Origin: a virus
Reading direction: 5' to 3' (one strand)
IMG/VR virus record: IMGVR_UViG_3300046777_001492
Span: 1 to 25,438 of that record
DNA length: 25,438 nucleotides
Part shown: positions 1,225 to 23,839 of the stretch, piece after piece
How the letters are laid out: the number at the start of each line of letters is the position of its first letter
Position numbering within the stretch: position 1 is the stretch's first letter
Notes under the pieces: model-generated
What the model was told of the DNA's origin: nothing
Seen by the model: only the letters and a program-made list of their open reading frames with translations
Databases searched by the model: none
Program-made: the position numbers and the translations under genes

Positions 1225-1225
1225 T

Positions 1226-3792: not shown

Positions 3793-3793
3793 T

Positions 3794-4126
3794 ATGGCCA
3801 ATAAATATCTTCGTAAATACGACATCCCTGCGGCCACGACGGAGACCTTGTTGTACACAGTGCCCGCTGCAAATACCGCTATTGTCTCGTCTTTACGGGC
3901 CACCAATGGAAACGCCAATAACGGCGCTTTGACCGTGGTCGTTTATCCAGAAGGCGGGGCCACTGCTCACTACGTACTGAAGGACTATGTTATTCCGACT
4001 AACTCAACGATGGACGTATTCAGTGGTGTTCCACTTGTTCTTGAGGCCACGGATGAGTTGGCTGTTGAAGCAAGTGTGGCTGATGTGTCCGTATATCTGT
4101 CCTACCTTGAGGTAGATAGGAATTGA
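3794..4126 (+). CDS. Small beta-rich virion-associated protein
   Basis: A 110-residue protein with no membrane segment. Its sequence is a run of beta strands (ETLLYTVPAANTAIVSSLRATN, split around a proline; ALTVVVYPEGG; ELAVEASVADVSVYLSYLEV). The TVPAANTAIV..L.A.N motif recurs in small phage virion proteins that travel with tail or decoration genes, from memory. It starts one base after the previous stop and ends at the first real non-coding gap in the block, so it may be the last gene of the lysis/tail sub-operon. No enzymatic motif is seen. Confidence 0.6.
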   Translation: MANKYLRKYDIPAATTETLLYTVPAANTAIVSSLRATNGNANNGALTVVVYPEGGATAHYVLKDYVIPTNSTMDVFSGVPLVLEATDELAVEASVADVSVYLSYLEVDRN

Positions 4127-4152
4127 TGGTTTTTTGTGGTATGGGGTATACT
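4123..4152 (+). promoter_or_regulatory. Putative sigma70-like promoter before the large virion genes
   Basis: TTGATG (4123-4128), an 18-base spacer and TATACT (4147-4152) lie in the 108-base gap before the 670-residue virion gene; the -35 hexamer overlaps the stop of the gene before. TATACT differs from the -10 consensus at one base; the -35 is weaker. Transcription would begin near 4159, inside a perfect 10-base palindrome (GTGCTAGCAC, 4154-4163) that could act as an operator. Prediction only. Confidence 0.45.
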
Positions 4153-4200
4153 TGTGCTAGCACTAACGCGAAAGTGCGAAAAGAGTCGCGCCTGATACCC
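4143..4200 (+). other. Structured intergenic element with nested inverted repeats
   Basis: The outer arms GGGTAT (4144-4149) and ATACCC (4195-4200) are complementary. Between them are the perfect palindrome GTGCTAGCAC (4154-4163) and a second inverted repeat, CGCGA (4167-4171) with TCGCG (4186-4190). The arrangement could form a branched RNA or DNA structure of about 57 bases. It resembles a tRNA only superficially and is too short for one. It overlaps the putative promoter, so only part of it would be transcribed from that start. Confidence 0.4.
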
Positions 4201-4217
4201 ACCCATTTTTACTGCAT

Positions 4218-4232
4218 CGAACTTGAGGTTCG
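4218..4232 (+). promoter_or_regulatory. Hairpin carrying the ribosome-binding site of the next gene
   Basis: CGAAC (4218-4222) and GTTCG (4228-4232) flank the loop TTGAG, forming a short hairpin that ends two bases before ATG 4235. The likely Shine-Dalgarno GAGG (4225-4228) lies mostly in the loop. It supports ATG 4235 over the TTG at 4223 as start, because a TTG start would leave no ribosome site. The hairpin could tune translation of the first large virion protein. Confidence 0.4.
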
Positions 4233-4234
4233 CA

Positions 4235-8536: not shown

Positions 8537-8551
8537 TAAACAGGGGTTTTC

Positions 8552-10459
8552 ATGGAAGACAAGGTTCTCAAACGTGCAATGTTTATGATGCCTCTCAAGT
8601 CAGGCACTATGAACAGCGGAATCATGCAGGGTTTTGAAGACGGGGAAGACGATGACGAAGAGGGTATGGACGAGGAAATGTCCTCGGCTGAACTCACTCG
8701 TCGTACTCCCCAGTCACCCGAAATCCTGATGAACAACCTCCGTGGTGACATCCGCTCCGTGGATGCGCGGTACGAGGAGCTTGCTCAGATGGTCGGGGAC
8801 CAAGCTGCAATGGACACTCCGCCGGAAGTGCTTGCACTGCTTCAAGGTCAGATGGGCCAACAGCCGCCGCAAGGTGGTATTGGCGCTCTGCCTCAGGCTC
8901 CGCAACCTGCCATGGACCAAGCCGCCGCAGGCGGTGGTATCGCGGAGATGATGCCGCAAGAAGCCGCTCCTCCGATGCCCGCTCCGCAAGAGCAGATGGC
9001 CATGCCTCAAGAACCGCTGCCCACGGACCAAGGCATGATGCCTCCCCCGCAAGGTTTTGCGCGAGGGGGCTATGTCCAGCATTTTGCTGATGGGTCAGAC
9101 GAGTATGGTGTGACCCCAGCGGGGTACAACTCGGGTTTTAATTTCGGCCCCGGCTCCTTTCAGGCCAAGGATGTCGAGGCCGCTAGAAGTCGTTTGTTGA
9201 ACATGGCCAACAGTGCCCCTATTGCTATTCCTAGTCTGGAGTCTAGGGTTCAGGCGCGTCTCCCCGAATATCGTCGCCTTCTTGGCGTTGACCAAGAGCG
9301 TTCGCAAGCCAGAATGCTTCTAGATATTGCACAGGCCGGACTAGCTTTTGCGTCGAATGTGGACCCGGTAACTGGACAACCTATGATGGGTAGCTCTTTT
9401 GCCTCCCGTTTGGCACAGGCATCCCGTGCCTTACCCGCAACGCTAAGCGAACGCATGTCTGATGTGGAAAAGGCGGAAAGGGCTGTTTCTCTTGCCGCGA
9501 TTCAGGCGGGTGAAAAAGACATTGAAGCGGCACGTGCCTCTCAACTTAAGATGGCAGACATTGAGCGGGATGCGCTGTCAGCTATCGTCCGGGCCGGTAG
9601 TAATCCGTTCAAGGCTTTTGCTACGATGAAAGACATCGATGTGATGTCGATGCTTGCTCCGGGCTACAAGGACGGCACGTTGAACGAAGATGGCCGACGC
9701 TTCTTTGAAGCCCGTGTTCAAAACTACGTTCAACCTGAGTATATTCAGACTACTGACCCCGTGACCGGTAACATTTCTGTGCGAGAAAAGCGCAACGAGC
9801 TTCCGAAGTTTGTAAAAGATGCGCTTGACATTGGCAAGGACAAAATTCCAAATGTCGTCGCCGAAACCCAGCCGGTAGAACCCGCCACCACAGGAGCAGC
9901 TTCGGCCACTGAACGCGGAGCAGTTGCTGCCCCTGAGTCGCAAACCACGGGTCCGGGAAAGAAGACTATTTGGGAAATGGCGTCTGACTTTACGGGCCCT
10001 GTGCCATCACTCAGCACTTCTACGCTTTTGCGTCCCTTCACGGCAGAGTCTGATGTTGGCCGTCGCCAACAAGAGACTAGGTCTTATGTGGATTCAGCCG
10101 TACGAAACCTAATCAAAAACCTGCAAAGCAACCCTCGGTATCCTGAGGGTGAGCGTAAGGCAATTGAAAAGGAATTGGACATTGGTACCAATTTCTGGGA
10201 CTCTACTTCCGCTATGCGGAATCGCCTGAAGGGTATAGACAGCTTCTTGCTCAAGCGACAGGAAGAGGCTGACGCTGGTGGTGTTAATGACTCCTTGCCC
10301 AAAGAGACACGCCAACAGTATCGTAGCGTTGCAAATGAACTTCGTAAGTTTAGAGAAATACTGATGCCCCCCAAAGTGACCACCATGGACGAAGTTGAAA
10401 GACTTCCCTCTGGTACCACTTTCTTCTGGACCGATGGTAGCGTACGAAGGAAAAAGTAA
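8552..10459 (+). CDS. Large virion protein, acidic and Pro/Gln/Met-rich N-terminus
   Basis: A 635-residue protein from ATG 8552, preceded by CAGGGG. Residues 27-47 are a very acidic patch (GFEDGEDDDEEGMDEE). Residues 56-98 include NNLRGDIRSVDARYEELAQM and TPPEVLALL, a block I recall in marine phage virion proteins. Residues 100-167 are low-complexity Gln/Pro/Met/Ala. Then FARGGYVQHFADGSDEYG (169-186) appears; its FADG phrase is also in the virion gene starting at 4235. The middle (about 215-330) is helical with Ala/Arg/Glu. The C-terminal half is globular and charged and ends VRRKK. The stop overlaps the next ATG (TAATG). It is probably an internal or tail-associated protein; function unknown. 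Confidence 0.6.
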   Translation: MEDKVLKRAMFMMPLKSGTMNSGIMQGFEDGEDDDEEGMDEEMSSAELTRRTPQSPEILMNNLRGDIRSVDARYEELAQMVGDQAAMDTPPEVLALLQGQMGQQPPQGGIGALPQAPQPAMDQAAAGGGIAEMMPQEAAPPMPAPQEQMAMPQEPLPTDQGMMPPPQGFARGGYVQHFADGSDEYGVTPAGYNSGFNFGPGSFQAKDVEAARSRLLNMANSAPIAIPSLESRVQARLPEYRRLLGVDQERSQARMLLDIAQAGLAFASNVDPVTGQPMMGSSFASRLAQASRALPATLSERMSDVEKAERAVSLAAIQAGEKDIEAARASQLKMADIERDALSAIVRAGSNPFKAFATMKDIDVMSMLAPGYKDGTLNEDGRRFFEARVQNYVQPEYIQTTDPVTGNISVREKRNELPKFVKDALDIGKDKIPNVVAETQPVEPATTGAASATERGAVAAPESQTTGPGKKTIWEMASDFTGPVPSLSTSTLLRPFTAESDVGRRQQETRSYVDSAVRNLIKNLQSNPRYPEGERKAIEKELDIGTNFWDSTSAMRNRLKGIDSFLLKRQEEADAGGVNDSLPKETRQQYRSVANELRKFREILMPPKVTTMDEVERLPSGTTFFWTDGSVRRKK

Positions 10460-13400
10460 TGGCTGAAAAGGCTCTGTCCATTGATGACCTTTCTGCTCCC
10501 GTAGAGGGGCCCACTTCGTCTCTTCCAGTAAGGGCAGCGGAAGAAACGGGAACTCTATTGGGTTCCCTTGGTGTACCTGAGCCAGTAAAGGAAATGGGGT
10601 TAGGTGCTGCCTCAGGATTTACGACCACTGCGCCTCCTGTAGCTGGGGCCGCCATGGGCATGAAACTTGGCGCACCGCTAGGGGGACCCGGCGTTGTTGT
10701 CGGGGGACTATTGGGTGCTGGCGCAGGTTATCTTGCTAGCTCCGAGCTACAGAAGCTCATACCCGGACTGTCACGTGAGGACCTAGCGCCCTATCGTGCA
10801 GGTGGTGTCACCTTCGGTGAATCTATTGGTTTTGCTCCGCTGGCCTTTGGTATTCCACAGATGACGGGCAACCGTGTTTCACGGTTCATTTCCGGTATCG
10901 GAGAAAGTGCTCGTCGTAGGCCAGTTGCTTTTACCGCTGCGGAAACAAGTTCTGCTGTTGGAGCAGGTACGGGGGCTCTTCTCGCTGAAACGTATGCCCC
11001 CGGTGATGCTGGAACTAAAGCAGGGGCCGAAATACTTGGGGGATTCATGTTCCCCGGTAGGTTGTTCATCAATGCCACCTCGACAGCACTTGATGCGGTT
11101 AGTGCAATCAAGGGCACCGTCACGGAAGGTGCTCGTGAGGGTCGCGCAGCAGACAGAATTAAAACCATCATTGAAGAAAACGGGGAAGACTGGCAGGCGA
11201 TCGCCCGCGCTCTTGAGCGTCCTTCTCCACCGGGAGTAAAGCCTACTGCCGCTCAAAAAGTTGGTGCTGCAATGCCGGGTGGCAGTGTGGCTTTGTCTGC
11301 GCTTGAAACAAGCCTCGCCCGTGGCAACGCAAAGTTTGGTGCCGAAACCATTGAGCAAGGTCTTCTTGCCATGCGGGGCTATCAATCCCTCATTCGTAAT
11401 CTTGAGGACGTGGGCAACCCGGAAGCACTGCGTAGAGCAGCAGAGTTGCGGGACACTTGGTTCAAAAACCTAGTTGATGGCCGTTTGGCGCTGGCCGATG
11501 CAGAGGCAGCAGACAAGATTCGCCGTATCTCGAAGGATACACCTCAGTCTCGTGTTCAAATTGGCGAAATTGTCAGAGATGAAACCATGGGGGCTCTGCG
11601 TGAGGCCCGTGATTATGAGAAGCAGCTTTGGCAAGAGGCCTACCGAGATTCGTTTAAGGTTACTCGTGCTGGTGAGGTTGTAGCACGTACCTTGAAACCC
11701 AAGAACACGCTGCGTACCTATTTGGGCGTTGTCTCGGAAAAAACACCCGAGTTCATGGGGGAAATCTCTGCCCCATTAAGGGCCGTGATGAACCGTCTCG
11801 GTGCAACCGACGAGGTGTTGCGGGCCTACAAGAACGGAAAGATGTCCCGTGAGTTTCTTGAGACCGGAGAGATACCTCCCACCACACTCAGAAAAATCAC
11901 TGGTAAAGAGACTACTGTTTCTGACCTGATTAACATCAGAAGTGACCTGCTTGGCCTTGCACGAGACGCTGCCGGAAAGGGTGATGTGTCAAATGCTTCT
12001 CTATACGGTAAGTTGGCAGAATCCGTACTGGATGACATGGCCTCACTGAACACTGCTGGTTATGACCGTGCACGGATGTTTTCCCGTGCACTTAATGACT
12101 CTTTCACCCGCACATTTGCTCGTGATGTAACTGCGGTCGTAAAGAGTGGGGCGGAAAAAATTCCGGCGGAAGTTTTGGTCACACGTGCCTTTGGCCGAGA
12201 CGCGGACACCGTGGCGCTTCGTATGACGGATATCGAAGACGCGGTTAATCTGCTACGCAAAGAGTATGACGCAGTTGCTAAGAATTTCGGCCCTGATAGC
12301 CGTAGAGCAAAAGACCTTCTTCCGCTTGCAGAGCTTGCGGACACACGTGTTGCTTCTATACGAGATGCTCAGGAACGAGTACTTCGTCTTGCTGCGGCTA
12401 AGTCGGTTGACCCCACGACGGGTCGGCTAAATGCAACGGCTTTGACAAAGTTTGTTAATGACAACCGCACCATGCTTGACCGTTTCGGGATTACAGCCGA
12501 CCTCGAAAACGCTACCCAAGCAGAAAACATGTTTCGTGCTATCAACGACAGCACGAGTGCAATCAATCGAACTCTTGGTAAACAGACTACCTTTGCCCGT
12601 GTCTTGAAGTTTGAAAATCCCACGGCTGCGATTACGGATGCCATTAACAGTCGAGCCCCAGCCAAGAACTTTAGCCGACTGGTTAAGTTTGCTCAGTTGG
12701 GTGGTTCTAATGCGGTGGACGGTCTTAAGTCCTCTGTCTTTGACTACGCGTACATTAAGGCCGGTGGCGATACGGGGTTCAATGTCACTGCTTTTGAAAA
12801 GGCGCTTTTCCAGCCAGTAGGTCCCGGAAAGCCTTCTTTGGTGGGCATGCTCCGTGAAAATGGAGTGATGTCTTTCTCGGAGGTAAAAGACCTTCGCCGT
12901 CTAATCACTCCGATGAAGCGTGTTGAAAGTGCCATGGGCAATCGCCGCATGCTGGAAGAGGTTTTGTCTGGCGCTGACGCAGCCACAGAACTTGGTCTGC
13001 GCGTTGTGGGTGCCAAAATCGGTACTGGATTGAGTGAAGCAGTTGGGGGAGGCGGTAACTCGCTGATTGCTGCGGCTGCGGGTTCTAAGGCAGTGCGTCA
13101 GATTTTTGACAAAATGCCTAACTTTATGACCCGTAACATCATCGAAAACGCAGCCAAGGACCCCCAACTAATGGCACTTCTCTTGCGTAAAGGGGCTACT
13201 GAAAGAGAACGTATTAAAATCGCTCGTTCCCTTCATGGTTACCTTGGTGCAGCCGGTCTTAACTACGCAACCTTTGAAGAACCTCCTCTTCCCCCAGAAG
13301 AACAACGGCCTCGCGGTACTCCCATGACCATGCTTCAACGTCAGTACCCGAGCACGAAGGGGGTTCCGTCGATGAGTGCCCCGGCTCAGGGTCAACCGCC

Positions 13401-13524
13401 CGCTGCCCCCGGACCACAATCCGCTGCTCCCGGAGCAGCCCGAGCACAGCTTGCGGCCTTGTTCCCTAACGATACCCTGTCAGGGCTCATTTCTGCTCAA
13501 AACCAGCCCCAAATGCCCCAATAA
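10459..13524 (+). CDS. Very large internal/ejection-type virion protein
   Basis: The largest gene in the window, 1021 residues, coupled to the gene before it by a one-base overlap. Residues 47-96 form a Gly/Ala/Val-rich, glycine-zipper-like hydrophobic segment (GMKLGAPLGGPGVVVGGLLG), apt to insert in membranes. The following approximately 800 residues are mostly charged alpha helix without catalytic motifs that I recognise. A second Gly-rich spot lies near 855-880, and the C-terminus (about 955-1021) is Pro/Ala/Gln-rich with repeated PGAARAQ-like phrases. Last position in the virion block, great length and helical content match the large ejection proteins of podoviruses (such as T7 gp16 or P22 gp20 class), but no transglycosylase or polymerase domain is evident. 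The gene ends just before a strong terminator. Confidence 0.6.
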   Translation: MAEKALSIDDLSAPVEGPTSSLPVRAAEETGTLLGSLGVPEPVKEMGLGAASGFTTTAPPVAGAAMGMKLGAPLGGPGVVVGGLLGAGAGYLASSELQKLIPGLSREDLAPYRAGGVTFGESIGFAPLAFGIPQMTGNRVSRFISGIGESARRRPVAFTAAETSSAVGAGTGALLAETYAPGDAGTKAGAEILGGFMFPGRLFINATSTALDAVSAIKGTVTEGAREGRAADRIKTIIEENGEDWQAIARALERPSPPGVKPTAAQKVGAAMPGGSVALSALETSLARGNAKFGAETIEQGLLAMRGYQSLIRNLEDVGNPEALRRAAELRDTWFKNLVDGRLALADAEAADKIRRISKDTPQSRVQIGEIVRDETMGALREARDYEKQLWQEAYRDSFKVTRAGEVVARTLKPKNTLRTYLGVVSEKTPEFMGEISAPLRAVMNRLGATDEVLRAYKNGKMSREFLETGEIPPTTLRKITGKETTVSDLINIRSDLLGLARDAAGKGDVSNASLYGKLAESVLDDMASLNTAGYDRARMFSRALNDSFTRTFARDVTAVVKSGAEKIPAEVLVTRAFGRDADTVALRMTDIEDAVNLLRKEYDAVAKNFGPDSRRAKDLLPLAELADTRVASIRDAQERVLRLAAAKSVDPTTGRLNATALTKFVNDNRTMLDRFGITADLENATQAENMFRAINDSTSAINRTLGKQTTFARVLKFENPTAAITDAINSRAPAKNFSRLVKFAQLGGSNAVDGLKSSVFDYAYIKAGGDTGFNVTAFEKALFQPVGPGKPSLVGMLRENGVMSFSEVKDLRRLITPMKRVESAMGNRRMLEEVLSGADAATELGLRVVGAKIGTGLSEAVGGGGNSLIAAAAGSKAVRQIFDKMPNFMTRNIIENAAKDPQLMALLLRKGATERERIKIARSLHGYLGAAGLNYATFEEPPLPPEEQRPRGTPMTMLQRQYPSTKGVPSMSAPAQGQPPAAPGPQSAAPGAARAQLAALFPNDTLSGLISAQNQPQMPQ

Positions 13525-13564: not shown

Positions 13565-13590
13565 GAGGCCCTATACGGGCCTCTCTTTTT
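13565..13590 (+). terminator. Rho-independent terminator of the virion operon
   Basis: A perfect seven-base stem, GAGGCCC (13565-13571) with GGGCCTC (13577-13583), loop TATAC, followed by TCTTTTT. On the opposite strand the hairpin is not followed by a T-run, so it acts for the plus-strand virion transcripts and not clearly for the convergent exonuclease unit that ends at 13611. Confidence 0.88.
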
Positions 13591-13610: not shown

Positions 13611-14321
13611 CTACTCTGCCATAGCGTCAGGTTTTTCGCTTTGTGAGACGAACTTTTCGACCCTTGCCAACCATTGGGCCTTGTACGACTCAAATTCTCG
13701 CCCGCAAGTGATGAACTCCTCGGTGCCTCCCTGCTGAGAAGCCATAAGAACCACCCCGGTATTGATTTCAGTACCGTGGACAATGTCATGCGCTAGGGCG
13801 TAAGCGGCCAGTTGGTGGAAGTAGTCTTCAATCCACTCCCGCTTCTTCATCTTGTTGGTCTGCTTGAAGTCGATGATGCAGGGCTTGCCTCTGTACACCC
13901 CGACCAAGTCGGTGGTCCCTGCATACTTCTCCGGGTAGTACAGCATGACTTCGCTGCCCCATATCTCTGACAGGTGCTCGAAGTAGGTATTGACGATGCG
14001 GTACCCCATTTCGTAGCCCTTGCACATGAGCCAGTTCTTCGGAGGCGGGAGTGACCGACCAAGGACCATACGTTCAATGACGGAGTGGAGATGCGTTCCG
14101 ACAATCGACGCGTCGTTCTTAATCTTGTCTGCCTGCTCTTGGCCCACGCGCTTGACCCAGTCATCTAGATGACTTTGGTCTTTTGTACCAGACAGAATAG
14201 TGGTGACACTTGGCAGGCGGGTATCGCCATAGACATACTTGCGCCCACCCTCCCCATCCACTCTGGTCAGGGGCTCGTACTTGTACTTGCGCTTAATCAG
14301 GCCCTGAATCAAATCAACCAT
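13611..14321 (-). CDS. PD-(D/E)XK exonuclease, RecB/Cas4/MGME1-like
   Basis: A 236-residue nuclease. Motifs in order: PSVTTIL at 37-43; GTHLHSVIE (75-83) with His77 and His79 as the usual motif-I histidine candidates; E124 in SEVMLYY; AGTTDLVG with D138; IIDFKQT with D151 and K153, the D-x-K active site; and HQLAAYA with Q169-170 and Y174, the QxxxY motif. This is the full signature of RecB-like metal-dependent exonucleases as in MGME1 and Cas4. In phages such enzymes make single-stranded DNA for recombination or trim replication products. Its ATG overlaps the end of the SNF2 helicase gene by 13 bases, so the two are co-translated and probably work together on DNA ends or forks. The gene runs opposite to both flanking blocks. 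Confidence 0.85.
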   Translation of the reverse strand: MVDLIQGLIKRKYKYEPLTRVDGEGGRKYVYGDTRLPSVTTILSGTKDQSHLDDWVKRVGQEQADKIKNDASIVGTHLHSVIERMVLGRSLPPPKNWLMCKGYEMGYRIVNTYFEHLSEIWGSEVMLYYPEKYAGTTDLVGVYRGKPCIIDFKQTNKMKKREWIEDYFHQLAAYALAHDIVHGTEINTGVVLMASQQGGTEEFITCGREFESYKAQWLARVEKFVSQSEKPDAMAE

Positions 14322-15763
14322 TGCTTGAATTCCTCTCCCAGTACCTGACTGGCGATATTGATTTTGCTGCGAAGTGCCTTGACAATGTGTTCGTCCACCG
14401 TGCCGGGGGTCAAGAGGTCTACGTAGGTGACCTTTGATGTCTGACCGATACGATGTGCACGGTCTTCTGATTGCAGTCGGACTTCGAGGTCAAAGCTATT
14501 ACTAAAATAGATGACAAGGTTAGCCGCCGTAAGCGTAAGGCCGTATCCACCTGTACGGGGCTGACCGACGAAAAACCGCAACTCACTGTCGGGGTCTTGG
14601 AAGGCTTCGACGATGCGACTTCTGTCTTCCGCTTCCGTCTCTCCGTAGTAGGCGGCGACGGAGTTCATGCCGTACACCTTCTGGATGGCGAGTTTTATCG
14701 CTTCGATATCATGCCGGTAGTTTGCCCAGATGATGGCCTTGCCGCTCGACTCGTCGAGGACTGCCATCAACTCCTTGACCCGATTGTTGGGGAGTTCGAC
14801 CTCCCGCCCATCGTCCAGCCGGGTATGACCGCAGACAATCTGGTGCAGACGCATCAGTTGGGTCAACGCATTGTTTGTACTGACTAAACCGTTGTCCAAC
14901 TGAGCAAGCGCCATGCTCTTCATCTGACTGTAGGCCTTTGCCTGTTCGTCGGTCAGTTCGACATGGCGGACGGTGTAGATTTTATCCGGTAGGTCCAGAC
15001 ACTCTTCCTTGGTAACACGAAAGGAGAACTGGCCAAGCTTTTCCTGTAGCTCATCAAGTCTGCGATAGCCGACAATCTGCTTGAAGGAGTGGGAGGCAAG
15101 ATGCCGTTCTTGCGTCACGGCATACCGTGCTTGGAAGGCGTAATAACTAGCCGCGTCCAGACAATCCGGGCTCAAGAACTCACACTGGGAGTACAAGTCG
15201 AGCGGTGACTTAGTGACCGGGGAGCCTGTGGCAATCCTCCTGTACCGTGCACCACGGCCCACTTTCACGAGGGACTTTGTACGTTTGGCGGTTGGGTTCT
15301 TGATGGTGGTGCTTTCGTCCACAATCATCATTGCCTGCGTAGCATTTAGGAACCGCTTCGCAAACTGTACACCCTTGTCAGTAGAGAACGCCTCGACGTT
15401 CATCACCAGAATCTTCAGGTCATCTGTCTGGCTGAACACGTGGTCTAGTTCTTCTTTCTCTTTGCGCTTCGGGCTCGGGCTCCAACAAGCCATCCTTTTA
15501 GGGATGTGGTCAGGCAAGTGCTTTGGTATTTCTGAGGTGTACCAATTTCGGTATACCCCCTTTGGTGCAATCACCAAGATGGCATCGATGCGCCCCTTGT
15601 CGTACAACATGGCCGCATTGTTGATGAGCATGAAGCTCTTTCCGGTACCCATCTCAGCGAAGATGGCGGATACATCGTGCTCCCAGAACCGTTGCAGGTA
15701 AGCTGCTTGGTGTAGGAACGGCTTGTTTTTAAAGGGGTACTTCGTCAAAAACCAGTCTGTCAT
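14309..15763 (-). CDS. SNF2-family (superfamily 2) DNA helicase/translocase
   Basis: A 484-residue ATPase from ATG 15763, chosen because AAAGGA lies eight bases upstream; the frame extends 39 codons further to 15880, but that would overlap the divergent gene and its residues do not resemble the family. Motifs: Walker A EMGTGKS (37-43), Ia IAPKG (65-69), Walker B DEST (149-152), motif III ATGSPV (178-183), V QPRTGGYGLTLTAAN (401-415) and VI SEDRAHRIGQ (432-441). The HRIGQ version of motif VI is specific for SNF2 enzymes. It has only the two helicase lobes, like the minimal phage SNF2 proteins. It would translocate on duplex DNA, perhaps driving fork remodelling, annealing or nucleoprotein removal for the coupled exonuclease. 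It ends in FKQWLI. Confidence 0.92.
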   Translation of the reverse strand: MTDWFLTKYPFKNKPFLHQAAYLQRFWEHDVSAIFAEMGTGKSFMLINNAAMLYDKGRIDAILVIAPKGVYRNWYTSEIPKHLPDHIPKRMACWSPSPKRKEKEELDHVFSQTDDLKILVMNVEAFSTDKGVQFAKRFLNATQAMMIVDESTTIKNPTAKRTKSLVKVGRGARYRRIATGSPVTKSPLDLYSQCEFLSPDCLDAASYYAFQARYAVTQERHLASHSFKQIVGYRRLDELQEKLGQFSFRVTKEECLDLPDKIYTVRHVELTDEQAKAYSQMKSMALAQLDNGLVSTNNALTQLMRLHQIVCGHTRLDDGREVELPNNRVKELMAVLDESSGKAIIWANYRHDIEAIKLAIQKVYGMNSVAAYYGETEAEDRSRIVEAFQDPDSELRFFVGQPRTGGYGLTLTAANLVIYFSNSFDLEVRLQSEDRAHRIGQTSKVTYVDLLTPGTVDEHIVKALRSKINIASQVLGEEFKQWLI

Positions 15764-15785
15764 GTGACTATCCTTTCTTTTGTAC

Positions 15786-15814
15786 TTGCATCCCAACGGG
15801 ACAATGTGCATACT
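15786..15814 (+). promoter_or_regulatory. Putative promoter of the replication operon
   Basis: TTGCAT (15786-15791), exactly 17 bases, then CATACT (15809-15814), in the 78-base divergent gap between the SNF2 gene and the first rightward gene. The start would be near 15821, giving a leader of about 20 bases that carries AAAGGAG. Just after the -10 lies AGCACTTTCGAGAAAG (15818-15833), also found in near copy after the other promoter-like site at 4159-4174. No comparably good match was found for the leftward SNF2 unit. Confidence 0.5.
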
Positions 15815-15841
15815 ACCAGCACTTTCGAGAAAGGAGAACAC

Positions 15842-16171
15842 ATGCCGAAAGTTTTTGTGGTTCAAGAAATGCCGCAACACAACATCTCTTCCGCACTCAA
15901 GTACGGTGAGATTGATGTCCTTCTACCCGGTAACACGCAAGTCGCTTTCAGTCTTGCACCAGTTGTTCGTCGCTTACGTCGTAAGCTTCGTGACTACAAG
16001 GACGGCGACTGGTTGCTGTTGACGGGTGACCCAGTTGCGATTGGCTTGACATGTGCCATCGCTTCTGCTTTTAATGGTGGACGGTTTCAATGTTTGAAGT
16101 GGGATAGGCGGGACAACTGCTACATCCCAGTTACTTGTGATACCACACAGAAAGGAGAATTTGATGAGTGA
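15842..16171 (+). CDS. Conserved phage protein of unknown function
   Basis: A 109-residue protein from ATG 15842 with AAAGGAG eight bases upstream; the open frame begins further left, but in the promoter region. It starts MPKVFVVQEMPQHNISSA and continues with GEIDVLLPGNTQ, FSLAPVVRRLRRKLRDYKDGDWLLLTGDPVAIGLTCAIA and KWDRRDNCYIPV. I recall this order (VFVVQE; LLPG.Q; GD.LLL.GDP.AIG) from small proteins next to replication genes in many phages, with no assigned function. The pattern GDxLLLTGDPxAIGLxxAIA has the look of a small alpha/beta fold. First gene of the replication operon, hence probably early and abundant. It overlaps the next start by eight bases. Confidence 0.75.
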   Translation: MPKVFVVQEMPQHNISSALKYGEIDVLLPGNTQVAFSLAPVVRRLRRKLRDYKDGDWLLLTGDPVAIGLTCAIASAFNGGRFQCLKWDRRDNCYIPVTCDTTQKGEFDE

Positions 16172-16721
16172 AATCAATAGCTTGTTTGAGGTAGATGCTG
16201 GCGCATTGACCATCAACGATGACCACCTGTCTAGCATCGCTTCGATGGCTAAACGTGCCAAGGTCCTTGAAAAGGAGATTGAGGAACTTGAGTCGGTGGC
16301 CAAGGAGCGTAAGGACCAACTGCGTAAGCTGTTGGAAGAGTCCATCCCCAACATGTTGGGTGAACTGGGCATGAAGTCCTTCAAGATGGCTGACGGTTCA
16401 AGCATCGAGGTCAAGCCGTTCTACTCGGCTAGCATTAGCGAAGAACGCCGTGCCACAGCCTTCGAGTGGCTGCGTCAACATGGCTATGATGACATCATCA
16501 AGAATACGGTTTCCGTTCGGTTCGGGCGTGGTGAAGACGAACTGTGCGGTGGCCTACTGAACCAACTTCGTGAGCAAGGCTATCCTGTCGAGCAAACGGA
16601 GAAGGTCGAACCCCAAACCTTGAAGGCTTGGGTTCGAGAAATGGTGGAGCGTGGGGTGGAGTTTCCCACCGACACGTTTGGCGCGTACATCGGCCAAAAA
16701 GCCACCATCAAGTCTGCTTAA
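16164..16721 (+). CDS. Conserved phage protein with N-terminal coiled coil
   Basis: A 185-residue protein from ATG 16164 (AAAGGAG nine bases upstream), overlapping the previous gene. Residues 22-66 are a heptad-like charged helix (AKVLEKEIEELESVAKERK), a probable dimerising coiled coil. Residues 70-185 form a globular part with FKMADGSSIEV, SISEERRATAFEWLRQHG, VSVRFGRGEDE and LKAWVREMVERGVEFP. Proteins of this design sit beside phage exonuclease and SSB genes. The coiled coil plus beta-hairpin plan recalls Gam-like host-nuclease inhibitors, but this is only analogy and the motifs do not prove it. It comes directly before the SSB candidate and opposite the SNF2/exonuclease unit, so a DNA-end or recombination accessory role is reasonable inference. 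Confidence 0.7.
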   Translation: MSEINSLFEVDAGALTINDDHLSSIASMAKRAKVLEKEIEELESVAKERKDQLRKLLEESIPNMLGELGMKSFKMADGSSIEVKPFYSASISEERRATAFEWLRQHGYDDIIKNTVSVRFGRGEDELCGGLLNQLREQGYPVEQTEKVEPQTLKAWVREMVERGVEFPTDTFGAYIGQKATIKSA

Positions 16722-16744: not shown

Positions 16745-17515
16745 ATGGCTAAGAACGATACGGCTGTTGCCGTCGCGGGTAAAACCGCTCTCGCTGTCGC
16801 TTCCATCTTCGAGGAAGATGCCCATAACGGTTTCGAGAACATGGGTCAGGAGGACTTTGCCCTCCCGTTCCTGAAGCTCTTGACCAACACCTCCCCTGAA
16901 GTCGGTGAGGTGGATGGGGCAAACCCCGGTGCCATTATGAACACGGTGACGAACCAGTGTTATGACGGCAAAAAGGGTGTGGTTGTCCTTCCGTGTGCTT
17001 ACGTTCGTCAGTACATCGAATGGGCTCCGCGTGGCTCTGGTAGTGGTGCACCGATTGCCATTCACCCGGCAACCAGTGACATCCTGTCCAAGACTCACCG
17101 TGAACCCGGTGACAACAAGGACTACCTCGACAACGGCAACTACATCGAAAACACTGCCAACCATTACGTCATGCTCATCAACAGCGAGGGTGCGCCTGAA
17201 CCGGCACTCATCGTGATGAAGTCCACTCAGCTTAAGAAGTCGCGCAAGTGGAACAGCATGATGATGTCCGTCAAGCTGATGGGCGCGAATGGTGCGTACA
17301 CCCCTCCTATGTATAGTCAGATGTACCGTCTGACCACGCTTGCAGAGTCGAACGACAAGGGCAAGTGGTACGGCTGGGAAATTGAGCGCATCGGCAGCGT
17401 CGAAGATGTTAATCTGTACCAAGCAGCAAAGGCGTTTGCTACTCAAATCAACAGCGGTGCGGTTAACACCAAGCACCAGTCTGATGACCCGGTAGCAGAA
17501 CACACGCCGTTCTAA
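16745..17515 (+). CDS. Probable phage single-stranded DNA-binding protein
   Basis: A 256-residue protein from ATG 16745, preceded by AAGGA; the frame is open upstream, but only inside the previous gene. The core is a beta-rich domain with many aromatic residues suited to base stacking (CAYVRQYIEWAPRGSGSG; KSRKWNSMMMSVKLMG; YRLTTLAESNDKGKWYGWEI). The C-terminus is a flexible tail ending DDPVAEHTPF, resembling the acidic, Phe-ended tail by which bacterial SSB and T7 gp2.5 recruit partners. It is not a classical bacterial SSB by sequence. The MKSTQLKKSRKWNS phrase recurs, from memory, in phage proteins annotated as ssDNA-binding. Position between recombination genes and the primase fits. An alternative is a recombination mediator. 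Confidence 0.6.
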   Translation: MAKNDTAVAVAGKTALAVASIFEEDAHNGFENMGQEDFALPFLKLLTNTSPEVGEVDGANPGAIMNTVTNQCYDGKKGVVVLPCAYVRQYIEWAPRGSGSGAPIAIHPATSDILSKTHREPGDNKDYLDNGNYIENTANHYVMLINSEGAPEPALIVMKSTQLKKSRKWNSMMMSVKLMGANGAYTPPMYSQMYRLTTLAESNDKGKWYGWEIERIGSVEDVNLYQAAKAFATQINSGAVNTKHQSDDPVAEHTPF

Positions 17516-17564: not shown

Positions 17565-19091
17565 ATGGATATTTCACGCTTCAAATCTATCTTTGAAGGT
17601 CTGGACATTGCTTACGGCACCTACAAGATTGAGAAATCTCGGGGTGATGGGAAGCAGGCAGGCAAGGCAATGGTGGTTCGCCAGCCGCCAACAGATGACC
17701 TTTGGAAGAAACACTTAGAAGGCGTTGAACCTTCTCTTGGCATCATCCCCATCCGTGCTGATAACACGTGCATCTGGGGTGTGATTGATATCGACCAATA
17801 TCCTATAGACCACAGGGGTCTTGTGGATAAGCTGCGTAAACTGAATCTGCCCTTGGTGGTATGCCGGAGCAAGAGCGGCGGTGCCCATTGCTTCTTGTTC
17901 ACCAAGTCGCCTGTGCCTGCAATCGACATGCAGACCTATCTGCGTAATGCAGCCGCATTACTTGGTGAGGCAGGCCGGGAAATTTTCCCCAAACAGGCAG
18001 AGATTCTGGTCGAGCGTGGCGACACTGGTAACTTCTTGAATCTGCCTTACTTTGCAGGTGATAACGGCACACGTTATGCCTTCAAAGATGACGGCACCGC
18101 TGCCAGTCTGGAGGAGTTCTATGCTCTTTACGACCAATATTCCGTGGATGGAATACCTGACATTCCGGATTCTCCCAAGGTGGGAGAAGTACCCATCATT
18201 GATGGGCCACCGTGCCTTCAGGCCCTATGTACCCAAGGATTCCCGGAGGGAACCCGCAACAACGGGCTCTTCAACATCGGCGTCTATCTGAAGAAAGTCT
18301 TCCCTGTTGGTTGGGAAGACAAACTCATGGAGCATAACTTCAAGTATTTTCACCCTCCCTTGGGGATGAGTGAGGTCAACTTGCTGGTTAAGCAGTTGGC
18401 TAAGAAGGAATACTTGTACAAGTGCAAAGACGCGCCCATCAACAGCTTCTGCAACTCGGGGCTTTGCCGCACTAGGCGGTATGGTGTCGGCACTAATGGG
18501 CCTGATGCTCCGGCAATAACAAGCCTGAGTAAGTATAACAGCGACCCTCCTCTCTGGTTCTTGGACGTGAATGGACGACGTATCGAACTTGATACAGATA
18601 GCCTGCACAACCAGCATCTGTTCCAGAAGGCTTGTGTCGAGAAACTGAACATCCTCCCGCCTTCGGTTAAAAAGAACGACTGGGAGTCGCTGCTAAATGC
18701 ACTCTTACGTGAGATGGTCGAGCTTGAAAAAATCCACGAGGCCTCTGAAGACATCTCTATTGTTGGTCGGTTTTATGAGCTTCTCGAGGAATACTGTACG
18801 CATCTACAACAGGCCATGGACAGAGATGAGCTTTTGCTAGGCCGTCCGTGGACTAGTGAAGAGGATGCAATGACCTACTTCAGGCTCAAAGATTTTGAGC
18901 TACACCTGAAACGTAGCAACTTCTCTGGCATGACTTCTCCCCAGATGGCCAACCGTTTGCGGGACCTGAGTGCTGAACCAATTAGCCTTTTCATTAAAGG
19001 CAGGACCGTACGCTGCTGGAGAGTCCCGGCATTTAAGAAGCAAGACTCTCCCTTCACTACCCCGGCTCAAAGAGACAGGAGTCCGTTCTAA
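17565..19091 (+). CDS. Archaeo-eukaryotic (AEP) primase, PrimPol-like
   Basis: A 508-residue protein. AEP motif I is GVIDIDQY with D75 and D77 (the DxD metal site); motif II is SKSGGAH (102-108) with His108; the following NFLNLPYFAG (156-165) with the acidic residues before it matches motif-III surroundings in AEPs of the type found in TOTE systems and phage PrimPols. The second part has FPEGTRNNGLFNIGVYLKK (226-244), a segment also typical of these primases, then a Cys cluster (C287, C296, C301) in KCKDAPINSFCNSGLCRTRRYGVG-like order, probably metal binding (motif given in part; see 285-309). The C-terminal about 180 residues are helical and unknown. It would prime, possibly also extend, DNA strands for the family A polymerase. 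There is no ring-helicase domain. It ends RSPF. Confidence 0.83.
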   Translation: MDISRFKSIFEGLDIAYGTYKIEKSRGDGKQAGKAMVVRQPPTDDLWKKHLEGVEPSLGIIPIRADNTCIWGVIDIDQYPIDHRGLVDKLRKLNLPLVVCRSKSGGAHCFLFTKSPVPAIDMQTYLRNAAALLGEAGREIFPKQAEILVERGDTGNFLNLPYFAGDNGTRYAFKDDGTAASLEEFYALYDQYSVDGIPDIPDSPKVGEVPIIDGPPCLQALCTQGFPEGTRNNGLFNIGVYLKKVFPVGWEDKLMEHNFKYFHPPLGMSEVNLLVKQLAKKEYLYKCKDAPINSFCNSGLCRTRRYGVGTNGPDAPAITSLSKYNSDPPLWFLDVNGRRIELDTDSLHNQHLFQKACVEKLNILPPSVKKNDWESLLNALLREMVELEKIHEASEDISIVGRFYELLEEYCTHLQQAMDRDELLLGRPWTSEEDAMTYFRLKDFELHLKRSNFSGMTSPQMANRLRDLSAEPISLFIKGRTVRCWRVPAFKKQDSPFTTPAQRDRSPF

Positions 19092-19375
19092 TGACTAACG
19101 ACATCCATCCGCTAGCAGCGGAGCCTGAAGATGCTCCGCTTCTTACTATTGACGGCTTTGAAGAAGCCCTACTAGGCGTTTCCTGTATGTGGGACGGTCA
19201 CGGTAGGGTCTATCGGCTTGTTTATGACGGCCTGAAGATGGTTGACATCCTCATGTCTGACGAAGAAACAAGCGAGGAAGATGCTTACGAATACGTGACC
19301 TACAACTGCGAGGGGTGGTACATGGGTCCGACCACACCAATTATTGTCTGGCCATATCATGGCGAAAATACTTAA
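19091..19375 (+). CDS. Conserved acidic phage protein of unknown function
   Basis: A 94-residue acidic protein; its ATG overlaps the primase stop (TAATG) with AGGAG upstream. It contains IDGFEEALLGVSCMW, LVYDGLKMVDILMS, SEEDAYEYVTYNCEGWYMG and TTPIIVW. I recall this order (GF..A..G; YD...i..L; M(s/t).eeA.ey...N..ga..G..TP) as a very widespread small phage family with no known function. No metal or catalytic motif is obvious. It sits between primase and helicase and overlaps the helicase start by 17 bases, so it is translated together with the replication proteins. Confidence 0.75.
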   Translation: MTNDIHPLAAEPEDAPLLTIDGFEEALLGVSCMWDGHGRVYRLVYDGLKMVDILMSDEETSEEDAYEYVTYNCEGWYMGPTTPIIVWPYHGENT

Positions 19376-20861
19376 GGTCTTTGGACCTCCGGGCACAGGG
19401 AAGACCACGTTCTTGTTGAACAAAGTTCAACAAGAGATGGAGCGTGGAGTACCTTCTAACCAAATAGGTTATTTTTCCTTCACGCGAAAAGCGGCTGGAG
19501 AGGCAAGGGATAGAGCGATTGTTAAGTTTCCAGAACTTAACGAAAAGACCGACTTCCCTTACTTCAGGACCCTGCATAGTCTTGCCTTTAGGCAGTTGAA
19601 TGTCAGCGCAAAAGACATGATGCAGGCGGAACACTTTTCTGAGTTTGCCAAGAAAGTGGGCATACAGATTTCTGTGTCTGCTGAAGATGAGGACATGTTC
19701 CTACGGGCAGACAACCCTATCCTTAACGAAATAAACCTAGCTCGTATCAAGGGGATGGACCTTCGTACTCACTACAACCAGTCGGCCATCGGCATTGAAT
19801 GGTTTCATCTGGAGTATGTAGAACGGGCCTATCGTCAATACAAGCAACAGCACCTGTTACTCGACTTTACTGACTTACTAGAGTTGATTGTTGACGAACC
19901 CGATCGACTGCCGCACTTAGAGACGGTGATTATCGATGAGGCACAGGACCTTAACCGCCTTCAATGGGTGATGGTCGAGGAACTGGCTAAGCGTTCCAAG
20001 TACGTTTTCATTGCGGGGGACGACGACCAAGCACTATTCACTTGGGCCGGGGCTGATGTGAACAGCTTCCTATCTATCGAGGGAGACATCAAGGTCCTCG
20101 ATAAGTCCTACCGAGTGCCTTCCTCTGTTCACGAACTGGCTGACCGTGTGGTCAAACGAATACACGGCAGACAGCCAAAGATATGGAGCCCAAGAGACTT
20201 TGAGGGCTCCGTCTTTTTCTACAACAAGTTCCACGATGTCGGCGTGTCAGAAGGAAACTGGCTAATTCTGGCCAGTACAAACTACATGCTGAATGACGTT
20301 TGTCCGTGGCTCAAGGAACAAGGACTTCTGTTTGAACGGTATGGACATCGTTCCATACCAGAGTCTGTCACTAATGCTGTTCGCTCATGGGAGACACTCC
20401 GTCGAGGAGACTCCATTCCATACGAAGCGGTCAAGCTGGTGTACAAGTATTTAGGCGGGGAGTTTGTGGCCAGAGGCCACAAGACACTTTTGGGAATCGA
20501 CACGGAAAAGCTGTACAACATGGATTCCTTGAAGCAAAGTCACGGCCTGCTTACTGATGACATCTGGCACCGCGCCCTTACAAAGGTATCCGAAGATAAA
20601 AGAGAGTACTTAATCGCCATGCTAAGGCGAGGAACAAAGATTACTTCAGAGCCAAAAATAAAACTGTCCACCATACACGGGGCTAAGGGTGGAGAAGCAG
20701 ACAATGTCCTACTCATCACCGACCTTAGCCCTAAGTTTGCACGGGACTACGGCAAGAACTCAGATGACGTGAACAGAATGCTTTACGTAGGAATCACCAG
20801 AGCTAAGCAAAGCCTTCATCTGGTCAGACCAACCAACCTTACACAGGGCTTTCGTATATGA
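19359..20861 (+). CDS. UvrD/PcrA-type superfamily 1 DNA helicase
   Basis: A 500-residue helicase; ATG 19359 was chosen because the protein then begins MAKILKVFGPPGTGKTT, leaving a short N-terminus before Walker A (9-16); the TTG at 19344 adds nothing conserved. Other motifs: Ia YFSFTRKAA (38-46), II DEAQD (193-197), III GDDDQALFTWAGA (220-232), IV LDKSYRVP (247-254), V STIHGAKGGEADNV (437-450) and VI LYVGITRAK (475-483). These are the SF1A signatures; at 500 residues it is shorter than bacterial UvrD (about 720), with reduced accessory subdomains, as in phage versions. It would move 3'-5' on single strands and may serve as the replicative or repair helicase, since no DnaB-type helicase is present. 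Its stop overlaps the polymerase ATG (ATGA). Confidence 0.92.
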   Translation: MAKILKVFGPPGTGKTTFLLNKVQQEMERGVPSNQIGYFSFTRKAAGEARDRAIVKFPELNEKTDFPYFRTLHSLAFRQLNVSAKDMMQAEHFSEFAKKVGIQISVSAEDEDMFLRADNPILNEINLARIKGMDLRTHYNQSAIGIEWFHLEYVERAYRQYKQQHLLLDFTDLLELIVDEPDRLPHLETVIIDEAQDLNRLQWVMVEELAKRSKYVFIAGDDDQALFTWAGADVNSFLSIEGDIKVLDKSYRVPSSVHELADRVVKRIHGRQPKIWSPRDFEGSVFFYNKFHDVGVSEGNWLILASTNYMLNDVCPWLKEQGLLFERYGHRSIPESVTNAVRSWETLRRGDSIPYEAVKLVYKYLGGEFVARGHKTLLGIDTEKLYNMDSLKQSHGLLTDDIWHRALTKVSEDKREYLIAMLRRGTKITSEPKIKLSTIHGAKGGEADNVLLITDLSPKFARDYGKNSDDVNRMLYVGITRAKQSLHLVRPTNLTQGFRI

Positions 20862-22723
20862 AAAACACTCCCATGTTTACTCGTCAAGTAGAGTGGGTAT
20901 CTCCAGATGTCTTCCCTGACCTGTCGCAGGCGGAAGAGATTGCAATCGACTTGGAAACGCGGGATGATAACCTCAAGAACTTCGGCCCCGGTTGGCCACG
21001 TAAAGACGGATACATTGTAGGTTTCGCAGTCGCGGCGGACGGCTATAAGGGGTATTTCCCTATCCGCCACGGGGGCGGGGGCAATCTAGACGAATCCATG
21101 GTCAAACGCTGGATTGCCTCCGTCTTACGTTTACCTTGCCCAAAGATTATGCACAACGCCGCCTACGACTTGGGCTGGCTGTTAGCAGAAGGCTTCGAGG
21201 TCAACGGCACCATCTACGATACGATGCTTGCCGCCCCGCTTCTAGACGAGAATCGCTTCAGCTACAGCCTGAACGCACTCGGCTACGACTACCTTCAAGA
21301 GACCAAGTCCGAGCAGGCCCTGCGAGACGCGGCAGAGGACTTCGGGGTGGATGCCAAAGGTGGCCTCTGGCAACTCCCCGCCATGTACGTCGGTGCTTAC
21401 GCCGAGCAAGACGCTGCGCTGACCCTGAAACTATGGCAGCACCTTAAGGTATTGATTCGTAAGGAAGAACTCGAGAGTATCTTCTCGCTTGAGACTGAAC
21501 TGCTGCCAATCCTGATTGGTATAACTTATCGCGGCATCCGCTTTGATAGGAAAAAGTGTGAGCAGTTGATTGACGAGTTGCAGAAGAAGGAGCGCGAGGC
21601 GGTCAAGAAAATCAAGGAATTGTGTGGTACCGACGTTGAGGTCTGGGCCGCTGCCTCTATTGCCAAGGCCTTTGACAAGCTTGACATCCCCTACCCCAAG
21701 ACCGAGACCGGCAAGCCTTCTTTCACGAAGTCCTTCCTAGACACACATAGCCACCCGATTTCAAAGCTAATCGTGGAGGCCCGTGAACTGAACAAGACTC
21801 ACGGAACATTCCTTTTGCCTTATCTGGATTACTCTGCAAAAACAGGGCGCATCCACCCGCACATCAATCAGCTTCGCTCCGACAGTGGTGGCACAGTGAC
21901 GGGCCGTTTGTCTATGGCTAGCCCTAACCTCCAGCAAGTGCCTGCACGGCATGAAGTCATTGGACCCATGGTCCGGGGCCTTTTTCTACCTGAGGAAGGT
22001 CAGTTGTGGGCGGCTAACGACTTCTCTTCCCAAGAACCACGACTCTTGGTTCACTACGCTACCCTTGTTGACCTACCGGGTGCGTCAGAGATGGCGGCGG
22101 TGTATAACGAAAACCCCCGTACCGACTTCCACCAGATGGTGGCAGACCTTGCCGGTATCCCGCGTAAACAGGCTAAGGTCATCGCACTCGGTCTGATGTA
22201 CGGCATGGGGAAGGGCAAGCTTGCCGCTTCGCTAGACCTATCGGCAGAAGAGGCATCAGAACTGATTGCCAAGTTTCACAGCAACGTCCCGTTCCTCAAG
22301 GGCACCATCAATGCCGTTATGAAGCGCATTGAGCACCCCGCGTCGAACGGCAGTATCCGCACCCTGCTTGGTCGGCGTTGCCGCTTCAACCTTTGGGAGC
22401 CCATGGAGTTCGGCATCAACAAGGCCCTCCCGCGAGAACAAGCCGTACTCGAGTACGGCCAACGCATCAAGCGGGCCTATACCTACAAGGGCCTCAATCG
22501 ACTCATCCAAGGGTCTGCTGCTGACCAGACCAAGGCCGCTATGGTGGCCTTGCACAAGGAAGGCTTCAGCCCTATGCTTCAGGTCCACGACGAAATCGCC
22601 ATCAGCGTCGCGTCGAAGGAGGAAGCAGAAAGGGCTTCACAAGTGATGCAAGATGCGGTAAGGTTAGAAGTACCTAGTGTGGTTGACGTTGAAATCGGAC
22701 CTACATGGGGTGATGCCAAGTAG
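20858..22723 (+). CDS. Family A DNA polymerase with 3'-5' exonuclease domain
   Basis: A 621-residue replicative polymerase. Proofreading domain: Exo I IDLET (D31, E33), Exo II HNAAYD (N100, D104), Exo III YAEQD (Y181, D185), all catalytic acids present. Polymerase domain: TGRLSMASPNLQQVP (348-362), motif A ANDFSSQEPRLL with D388 and E393, motif B RKQAKVIALGLMYG with K440, L444, Y448, and motif C QVHDEI with D578 and E579. The fingers position equal to E. coli Pol I Phe762 is Leu444. There is no 5'-3' nuclease domain, as usual for phage PolA, and no large insertion. It is the last large gene of the core replication set; start codon overlaps the helicase stop. Together with the AEP primase and helicases it would replicate the phage genome. 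Confidence 0.96.
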   Translation: MKNTPMFTRQVEWVSPDVFPDLSQAEEIAIDLETRDDNLKNFGPGWPRKDGYIVGFAVAADGYKGYFPIRHGGGGNLDESMVKRWIASVLRLPCPKIMHNAAYDLGWLLAEGFEVNGTIYDTMLAAPLLDENRFSYSLNALGYDYLQETKSEQALRDAAEDFGVDAKGGLWQLPAMYVGAYAEQDAALTLKLWQHLKVLIRKEELESIFSLETELLPILIGITYRGIRFDRKKCEQLIDELQKKEREAVKKIKELCGTDVEVWAAASIAKAFDKLDIPYPKTETGKPSFTKSFLDTHSHPISKLIVEARELNKTHGTFLLPYLDYSAKTGRIHPHINQLRSDSGGTVTGRLSMASPNLQQVPARHEVIGPMVRGLFLPEEGQLWAANDFSSQEPRLLVHYATLVDLPGASEMAAVYNENPRTDFHQMVADLAGIPRKQAKVIALGLMYGMGKGKLAASLDLSAEEASELIAKFHSNVPFLKGTINAVMKRIEHPASNGSIRTLLGRRCRFNLWEPMEFGINKALPREQAVLEYGQRIKRAYTYKGLNRLIQGSAADQTKAAMVALHKEGFSPMLQVHDEIAISVASKEEAERASQVMQDAVRLEVPSVVDVEIGPTWGDAK

Positions 22724-22938: not shown

Positions 22939-23127
22939 GTGAGCCTTATAGCTTCTTTGTTTTCAAAGCAAGAACTTGAAAAGTCTGCCCCTTTTTCTAG
23001 CCGGGAACTGTACGATGAACTGTACGGCGAACAACTCAGAAAGAGAGTCGAAGAATTACGCTCCATTGGGCGTTATCTGCCAGAAATGAAAAAGCCACAT
23101 TGGAGCCAAAGGAACTTAGGTAAATGA
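22939..23127 (+). CDS. Small charged helical hypothetical protein
   Basis: A 62-residue protein from GTG 22939, with AGGAG eight bases upstream; the frame is open back to 22801, but that part overlaps the previous gene out of frame and is unlikely. Highly charged helix in the middle (SRELYDELYGEQLRKRVEEL), basic end. The stop overlaps the DUF3310 gene start (ATGA). The leader resembles that of the preceding gene (AGGAGAAAGAAAGTG versus AAAGGAGAGAAAGTG). Function unknown. Confidence 0.65.
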   Translation: MSLIASLFSKQELEKSAPFSSRELYDELYGEQLRKRVEELRSIGRYLPEMKKPHWSQRNLGK

Positions 23128-23378
23128 GCGACAAGGTTAATCACCCCTCTCATTACACTCAAGGCAGCATCGAATGTATCGAAGCCCTTGAGGCGTTGAC
23201 CACGGGTCTTGACGGATACGAGGGCTACCTTGTGGCCAGTAGTGTCAAGTACCTATGGCGGTGGAAGTTCAAGAACGGACTTGAGGACCTGAACAAGGCC
23301 AAGTGGTTCTTGGACCGACTCATCTCCCATGTGGAGGACGAGACATGGAAAAAACGAATCACGGACGGTACGTCGTAA
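23124..23378 (+). CDS. DUF3310 family protein
   Basis: An 84-residue protein opening with VNHPSHYTQGSIECIE, then ASSVKYLWRWKFKNGLEDLNKAKWFLDRLI. This is the DUF3310 signature (NHPsHY ... iKYl.R...K....DL.KA.wYL.r), a small phage family sometimes listed as nucleotide-kinase-like without proof. The W-R-W variation in KYLWRWKFK replaces the more usual KYI.RaG.K. It is in the small-gene cluster next to the MazG-like gene, which is compatible with nucleotide metabolism or host takeover. The biochemical role is not known. Confidence 0.88.
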   Translation: MSDKVNHPSHYTQGSIECIEALEALTTGLDGYEGYLVASSVKYLWRWKFKNGLEDLNKAKWFLDRLISHVEDETWKKRITDGTS

Positions 23379-23533: not shown

Positions 23534-23839
23534 ATGACGTGGAATGAACTGTTGCGGGCGGTAGACGAGTGGGCCGAGGGCCGCGGTATCTTTAATGGCT
23601 CCAATCCTCAGGCACAACTGTTGAAAGCCGTTTCGGAACTGGGCGAATTGTGCGATGCTGAAATCAAAGGCTATGTGGATGACCAACAGGATGCCGTTGG
23701 TGATGTTCTTGTTTGCCTTATCATTTACTGCGGCATGAAGAATTACGACATGAAGCGTTGCCTTGAACTCGCGTACGAAGAAATCAAGAACCGCAAGGGC
23801 AAGATGGTTGCCGGTGGTGCTTTCGTAAAGGAGACTTAA
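23534..23839 (+). CDS. MazG-like NTP pyrophosphohydrolase
   Basis: A 101-residue all-helical protein, AGGAG seven bases before ATG. It has SELGELCDAEIKG with E35 and E38 (the first ExxE motif), then DAVGDVLVCLIIYCG with D53 and D57, and ends with CLELAYEEIKNRKGKMVAGGAFVKE, the standard tail of phage MazG-like proteins. In the second motif the usual Glu of ExxD is Ala54, with D53 next to it, as in several phage members I recall (DAIGD). It would hydrolyse nucleoside triphosphates to monophosphates; phage versions are thought to adjust nucleotide or (p)ppGpp pools. The substrate cannot be told from sequence. Confidence 0.82.
   Translation: MTWNELLRAVDEWAEGRGIFNGSNPQAQLLKAVSELGELCDAEIKGYVDDQQDAVGDVLVCLIIYCGMKNYDMKRCLELAYEEIKNRKGKMVAGGAFVKET

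Follow-up and report, generated by a model that had tools for sequence, protein, structure and literature searches.

A conserved phage replication block with an archaeo-eukaryotic-type primase, a UvrD-type helicase and a family A polymerase, and a candidate route to fork opening without a ring helicase

How is the replication fork opened in a phage which encodes a primase, a superfamily 1 helicase and a polymerase, but no ring helicase, the motor on which most phages rely? The question is raised by the IMG/VR record IMGVR_UViG_3300046777_001492, a linear viral fragment of 25,438 bp, which was analyzed in its entirety and is called here the window. No match to the window was found by megablast among phages. 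One region encodes a primase of the archaeo-eukaryotic primase (AEP) type, a small acidic protein, a UvrD-type superfamily 1A (SF1A) helicase and a family A DNA polymerase (PolA), with an SNF2-family ATPase on the opposite strand. A first-pass annotation of this DNA had viewed these genes as one coupled replication unit, and the arrangement is as it described: the first four genes form a single operon, in which stops overlap starts, and the SNF2 gene diverges from them. That the fork works without a phage-encoded ring helicase is well supported by the data reported below. The hypothesis that the UvrD-type helicase and a strand-displacing PolA open it together is given about an even chance of being correct.

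The lack of a ring helicase in the first-pass annotation holds for the window, where no DnaB_C/superfamily 4 helicase gene was found, but a 25.4-kb fragment cannot show absence from a whole genome. Broader evidence comes from 15 named phage records which carry the same block, 14 described as complete genomes and one (PSA28) as partial. In these records no match was found to DnaB_C (PF03796), even at an E-value of 1, to phrog_19, which acts as a DnaB family in controls, or to Toprim_2, in agreement with the annotated absence of a TOPRIM primase. Searches of 23 long IMG/VR contigs, used as supporting evidence only, gave no DnaB_C match above the cut-off. Canonical Walker A motifs in five complete genomes mark only UvrD, SNF2, terminase, thymidylate kinase and chance matches, and UvrD and SNF2 are the sole proteins of this set which could drive unwinding. 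The evidence has thus moved from the absence of a ring helicase on a contig to its absence in complete genomes. Among double-stranded DNA viruses carrying a primase, about 2% have no replicative helicase (Kazlauskas et al. 2018, PMC5862659).

Some weak candidates were discarded. A DnaB_C match of 11 bits in contig G013 falls in a protein which has a kinase-like P-loop (GLPGSGKTT), and was attributed to a nucleotide kinase. Very weak phrog_19 matches in two IMG/VR contigs fall in a kinase-like protein and in an 85-residue frame, respectively. Weak AAA_25 matches in eight records are all below cut-off, and those that could be placed are inside UvrD or exodeoxyribonuclease V genes. A DnaB-like helicase was detected in the positive control MW202803, and the search can therefore find ring helicases. 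This phage (locus L012, 14149-15165 and 11316-12383) has the DnaB-like gene and a primase relative which is divergent and shorter, and has no UvrD/PolA block; AEPs have therefore been paired with different helicases.

The block features a core of seven genes, encoding SNF2, proteins similar to Pam3 gp32, gp33 and gp34, the primase, UvrD and PolA. The core is shared by the 15 named records, which span the pelagiphages HTVC023P and HTVC027P, Nanhaivirus, and phages of Acinetobacter, Klebsiella, Salmonella and Providencia. Both podoviruses and siphoviruses are represented, including phages of the 2-aminoadenine-DNA group. In a wider search, at least 599 confirmed primase relatives were identified among 600 matching IMG/VR stretches. 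Partner genes were counted in the best-matching IMG/VR set, which is 41–90% identical to the window primase and leans to close relatives, and only loci with enough flank enter each denominator. UvrD accompanies the primase in 110/110 loci, the gp34-like protein in 99/99, the gp33-like protein in 81/81, PolA in 79/79, and SNF2 in 60/60, on the opposite strand every time. Linkage of the block genes exceeds chance, and the co-occurrence across viral genomes which the first-pass annotation had proposed to check is universal for these families. The gp32-like protein is less constant (49/76 loci), and was not found in the scanned partial stretch of HTVC023P. An apparent lack of SNF2 in pelagiphages was an artefact of truncated loci, as SNF2 is present in 15/15 whole records. 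Gene order and strand vary among named phages. The small acidic protein had been regarded as conserved; the gene is present and matches phrog_13182, but is not part of the core, because a profile match was obtained in 59/131 loci and in a single one of the 15 named phages, the closest relative.

The helicase matches PcrA (1pjr; profile E-value 2e-48) and features motifs I to VI of the UvrD type (GPPGTGKT, DEAQD, GDDDQ, SYR, STIHGAKG, GITRAK), the core residues of which are invariant in 13 homologues. The distance between the motif IV Arg and the motif V His measures 188 residues, as compared with 278 in PcrA, and the 90 missing residues map to the 2B subdomain. A full-size 2B subdomain, a feature of PcrA, UvrD and Rep, not of all SF1A helicases, is absent from the window helicase, and the protein is called UvrD-type rather than UvrD because of this reduction. 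By family membership, it is expected to move in the 3'-5' direction. In PolA, the O-helix residue L444 corresponds to position 762 of E. coli Pol I. Leu is found at this position in 100 of 103 aligned PolAs, Phe in the remaining three, all from Nanhaivirus. The closest solved structure is 7pbk, presumably phiVC8 DpoZ. SNF2 is unlikely to separate strands at the fork, because SNF2 enzymes are translocases which move without separating strands, as argued in PMC9069017.

The primase includes a Prim-Pol domain (residues 1–205), a helical, Cys-containing region (about 216–304), a C-terminal winged helix (about 396–495) and a terminal RDRSPF tail. Across 17 diverse homologues, eight residues never vary: D75, D77, K103, S104, H108, C287, C296 and C301. 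The last three make up the Cys cluster noticed in the first-pass annotation; D75, D77, S104 and H108 correspond to the AEP motifs I (DxD) and II (SxH-type). Candidates for the third catalytic acidic residue are E139, invariant in the same homologues, and D153. No convincing sequence relative was found in the PDB by phmmer and profile searches, and a match to the Pfam family INT1_R3, below cut-off, was taken as due to chance. The structural model (predicted local distance difference test score, pLDDT, 76) has an AEP fold (Foldseek E-value 2e-10). Its Prim-Pol domain best matches, among solved structures, the CRISPR-associated Prim-Pol (CAPP) of Marinitoga (7nqf/7p9j; Z 19.7 over 185 residues, VIA; 21% identity). 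In contrast to CAPP, the phage locus has no CRISPR context, and the phage protein adds the Cys region and the winged helix. The C-terminal 100 residues or so resemble winged-helix domains, including one of the SCCmec Cch helicase (Z 7.3), and may serve in origin binding.

The gp34-like protein is the candidate single-stranded DNA-binding protein (SSB). No convincing sequence relative of this protein was found in the PDB by phmmer and profile searches. The AlphaFold2 model (pLDDT 82) likely represents an oligonucleotide/oligosaccharide-binding (OB) fold. Structurally, it comes closest to 9teh_I, the phiC31 recombination directionality factor (Z 8.6, 148 residues, 8% identity), a match which hints at a fold common to this factor and the SSB candidate. 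Other neighbours are BRCA2 OB folds (Z 6.4), T4 gp32 (Z 6.2) and numerous chains of SSB and RPA; most of the listed neighbours are OB proteins which bind single-stranded DNA, with Z scores of only about 3–6.4. Similarity to the T4 gp32 core (1gpc) is moderate: the predicted OB-like fold aligns over 155 residues and the C-terminus is acidic in both, but identity is 10%, and no match is seen at the sequence level. The tail, DDPVAEHTPF in the window, is stronger evidence of SSB function than the fold scores. The C-terminal residue is aromatic in 120/120 homologues, and 103 of them end in -PF; the remaining tail is variable and acidic. Fold and aromatic terminus together make it likely that the gp34-like protein is an SSB.

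Members of the gp34-like family (PF23977, phrog_2402) were found in 498 phage records, some beside a family III polymerase, as in Wifcevirus. Aligned members of the family proved too divergent to be used for searching the contigs. The protein occurs therefore beyond the block, as a general replication partner rather than a block-specific one. In PaMx11, which has UvrD, and in Mansfield (Wifcevirus), which has the family III polymerase, a helicase gene is followed by the gp34-like gene and two small open reading frames (ORFs). No DnaB_C match was found in the PaMx11 and Mansfield genomes.

Unexpectedly, the primase ends in the same way; in the window, the C-termini of the gp34-like protein and the primase are at 17515 and 19088. 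Its C-terminus is aromatic in 128 of 131 IMG/VR homologues, and is -PF in 119, the tail being otherwise variable. Aromatic ends are rare in other core proteins (UvrD 2/126, PolA 1/110, SNF2 0/86). Primases of Nanhaivirus and of pelagiphages have no aromatic end, which is hence a lineage-bound trait. T7 gp2.5 uses a similar tail with terminal Phe. By analogy, the primase and the SSB candidate may compete for one docking site, or share it. In T7, gp4 contacts basic patches of gp5 through its acidic C-terminal tails (PMC12593628).

From these data we infer the following replisome. The gp34-like protein would coat single strands as SSB. The AEP primase would make primers, and may recognize the origin through its winged helix. 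The Leu762-type PolA would copy both strands. The UvrD-type helicase, moving on the leading-strand template, would unwind the fork jointly with strand displacement by PolA, an activity which some Phe762 and Leu762 viral PolAs exhibit in vitro (PMC9069017). SNF2 would most likely remodel protein-DNA complexes or branched DNA at the fork. The -PF tails of primase and SSB would probably dock on a common partner, either polymerase or helicase, as the T7 gp4 tails do on gp5.

Several points weigh against a fork opened by the UvrD-type helicase with PolA. UvrD alone is poorly processive. It is also an ordinary repair helicase, and conservation is no proof of a role at the fork. Nanhaivirus members contain an additional UvrD-like helicase, together with a gene similar to exodeoxyribonuclease V. 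The OB assignment of the gp34-like protein has middling Z scores (8.6 at best) and poor Foldseek E-values. No published biochemistry was found for this clade's helicase, primase or SSB candidate, and no published test of the fork-opening mechanism for the combination of Leu762 PolA, UvrD and SNF2. A more specific view is tentative: these phages would form a widespread class in which the SF1A helicase is the sole fork motor, primase and SSB are held on a single shared partner through their matching -PF tails, and the primase takes the polymerase-docking role of T7 gp4. If an SF1A helicase is indeed the fork motor, a double-stranded DNA phage replisome can be built without a ring.

The statement in the first-pass annotation that unwinding must be due to UvrD- or SNF2-type motors was too strong: SNF2 is a poor candidate, and the fork may be opened in other ways. 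The host DnaB ring may be brought to the phage origin by an unrecognised loader, UvrD being an accessory or repair enzyme, which is a serious though doubtful alternative. Lambda and other phages load host DnaB by phage loaders which share no known signature, and the gp33-like protein, present wherever it could be counted, or the less frequent gp32-like protein could act in this way. Yet the phages encode an AEP primase which replaces DnaG, the usual partner of DnaB; the five complete genomes showed no Walker A protein of the AAA+ loader type; and UvrD is retained at all loci counted, beyond expectation for an accessory gene.

It is rather unlikely that strand displacement by PolA itself opens the fork, with SSB and SNF2 as helpers and UvrD as an accessory, an idea drawn from Keown et al. 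2022 (PMC9069017). Among the active viral PolAs of that study, strand displacement was observed in 2 of 5 with Leu762 and in 5 of 15 with Phe762, and was linked to neighbouring SNF2 genes. However, the clearest displacement was that of two Phe762 enzymes, and UvrD is as universal in the block as SNF2. It is highly improbable that a ring helicase is encoded in a genome part outside the fragment: the linear 25.4-kb record is indeed short in comparison to the 61.5-kb circle of its nearest relative, but this complete genome, which has a primase 74% identical to that of the window and the same regional gene order, has no ring helicase, and nothing above cut-off was found in the 23 long contigs with the block.

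The features of the window are listed in Table 1. Starts of the SNF2 (15763), gp34-like (16745) and UvrD (19359) genes were selected by comparison with homologues.

Table 1. Replication block and adjacent features in the 25,438-bp window.
Feature	Coordinates	Strand	Profile matches	Occurrence
Lysis and virion genes	1-13524			
PD-(D/E)XK exonuclease	13611..14321	-	phrog_298 E 6e-51	
SNF2-family ATPase	14309..15763 (ORF to GTG 15880)	-	PF00176 E 1e-24, phrog_62 E 6e-124	core
Divergent intergenic region, SNF2 start to operon start	15764..15841			
Pam3 gp32-like protein	15842..16171	+	PF23992 E 3e-26, phrog_5888	
Pam3 gp33-like protein (DUF7307)	16164..16721	+	PF23984 E 2e-33, phrog_2378	core
Pam3 gp34-like protein, candidate SSB	16745..17515	+	PF23977 E 1e-64, phrog_2402	core
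AEP primase	17565..19091	+	PF22548 (AEP-TOTE) E 2e-12; phrog_21866 'primase' 6e-94	core
Small acidic protein	19091..19375	+	phrog_13182 E 1e-14	close relatives only
UvrD-type SF1A helicase	19359..20861 (likely ATG 19359; ORF from TTG 19344)	+	PF00580 E 4e-30	core
PolA with 3'-5' exonuclease domain	20858..22723	+	PF00476 E 7e-59	core

The intergenic region between the divergent SNF2 gene and operon likely includes promoters. No sigma-70-like site was found in it by consensus scan, and consensus promoters in the region are not more frequent than in shuffled sequence. The PD-(D/E)XK exonuclease is a frequent, not universal neighbour of the block (39/54 IMG/VR loci). The virion operon (ending at 13524) and the nuclease gene (ending at 13611) converge, and between them, at 13565-13583, is a terminator-like hairpin with T-rich sequence after it. 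The 3' side of PolA is occupied by genes for a DUF3310 protein and a MazG-like pyrophosphatase (23124-23378, 23534-23839), followed by several small ORFs.

The locus had been proposed as an under-described system. However, the combination of Leu762 PolA, UvrD and SNF2 without a ring helicase was already published in 2018, and the window belongs to it as judged by the polymerase residue and the neighbouring genes. According to the available portions of Nasko et al. 2018 (PMC6302109), Group II Leu762 PolAs from Chesapeake Bay virioplankton adjoin UvrD-like (68%) and SNF2-like (45%) genes, SNF2 being found only alongside UvrD, and are contrasted with Tyr762 and Phe762 groups, which have ring helicases. 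In the virome, the combination was the second most abundant of PolA and helicase, accounting for 16.4% of PolA-contig reads. The same portions deal with contigs, not complete genomes, and do not describe the AEP primase, the gp34-like SSB candidate, the gp32- and gp33-like proteins or the -PF tails. The additions made here are the seven-gene core, the SSB proposal and the -PF tail common to SSB candidate and primase, which together narrow down the proteins to choose for reconstitution.

The closest known relative is DSL-LC04 (OR003939), of the proposed 'Dishuiviridae' (PMC10611076), the complete circle mentioned above. It features the same block in the same order, with SNF2 and PD-(D/E)XK genes opposite, and its UvrD is 64% identical to that of the window. 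Replisome composition is not discussed in the available text of that report. Two DSL-LC04 genes (locus L001) bear names which find no support here: 'RNA polymerase sigma-G factor' for the small acidic protein (31404-31661) and 'ATP-binding protein' for the gp34-like one (33233-34009). Phages of the 2-aminoadenine (Z) DNA group, as Acinetobacter phage SH-Ab 15497 and Salmonella phage PMBT28, share the seven core families and the Leu762 PolA. In contrast to the window, these phages have SNF2 directly after the primase, on the same strand, and also carry a gene similar to adenylosuccinate synthetase, as is typical of 2-aminoadenine DNA. The T7 replisome (gp4, gp5, gp2.5) resembles the one proposed here, as both include a family A polymerase and an SSB, known or candidate, with C-terminal tails as candidate tethers. 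T7 gp4 is a TOPRIM primase fused to a ring helicase, whereas the phage locus encodes an AEP primase and a separate SF1 helicase.

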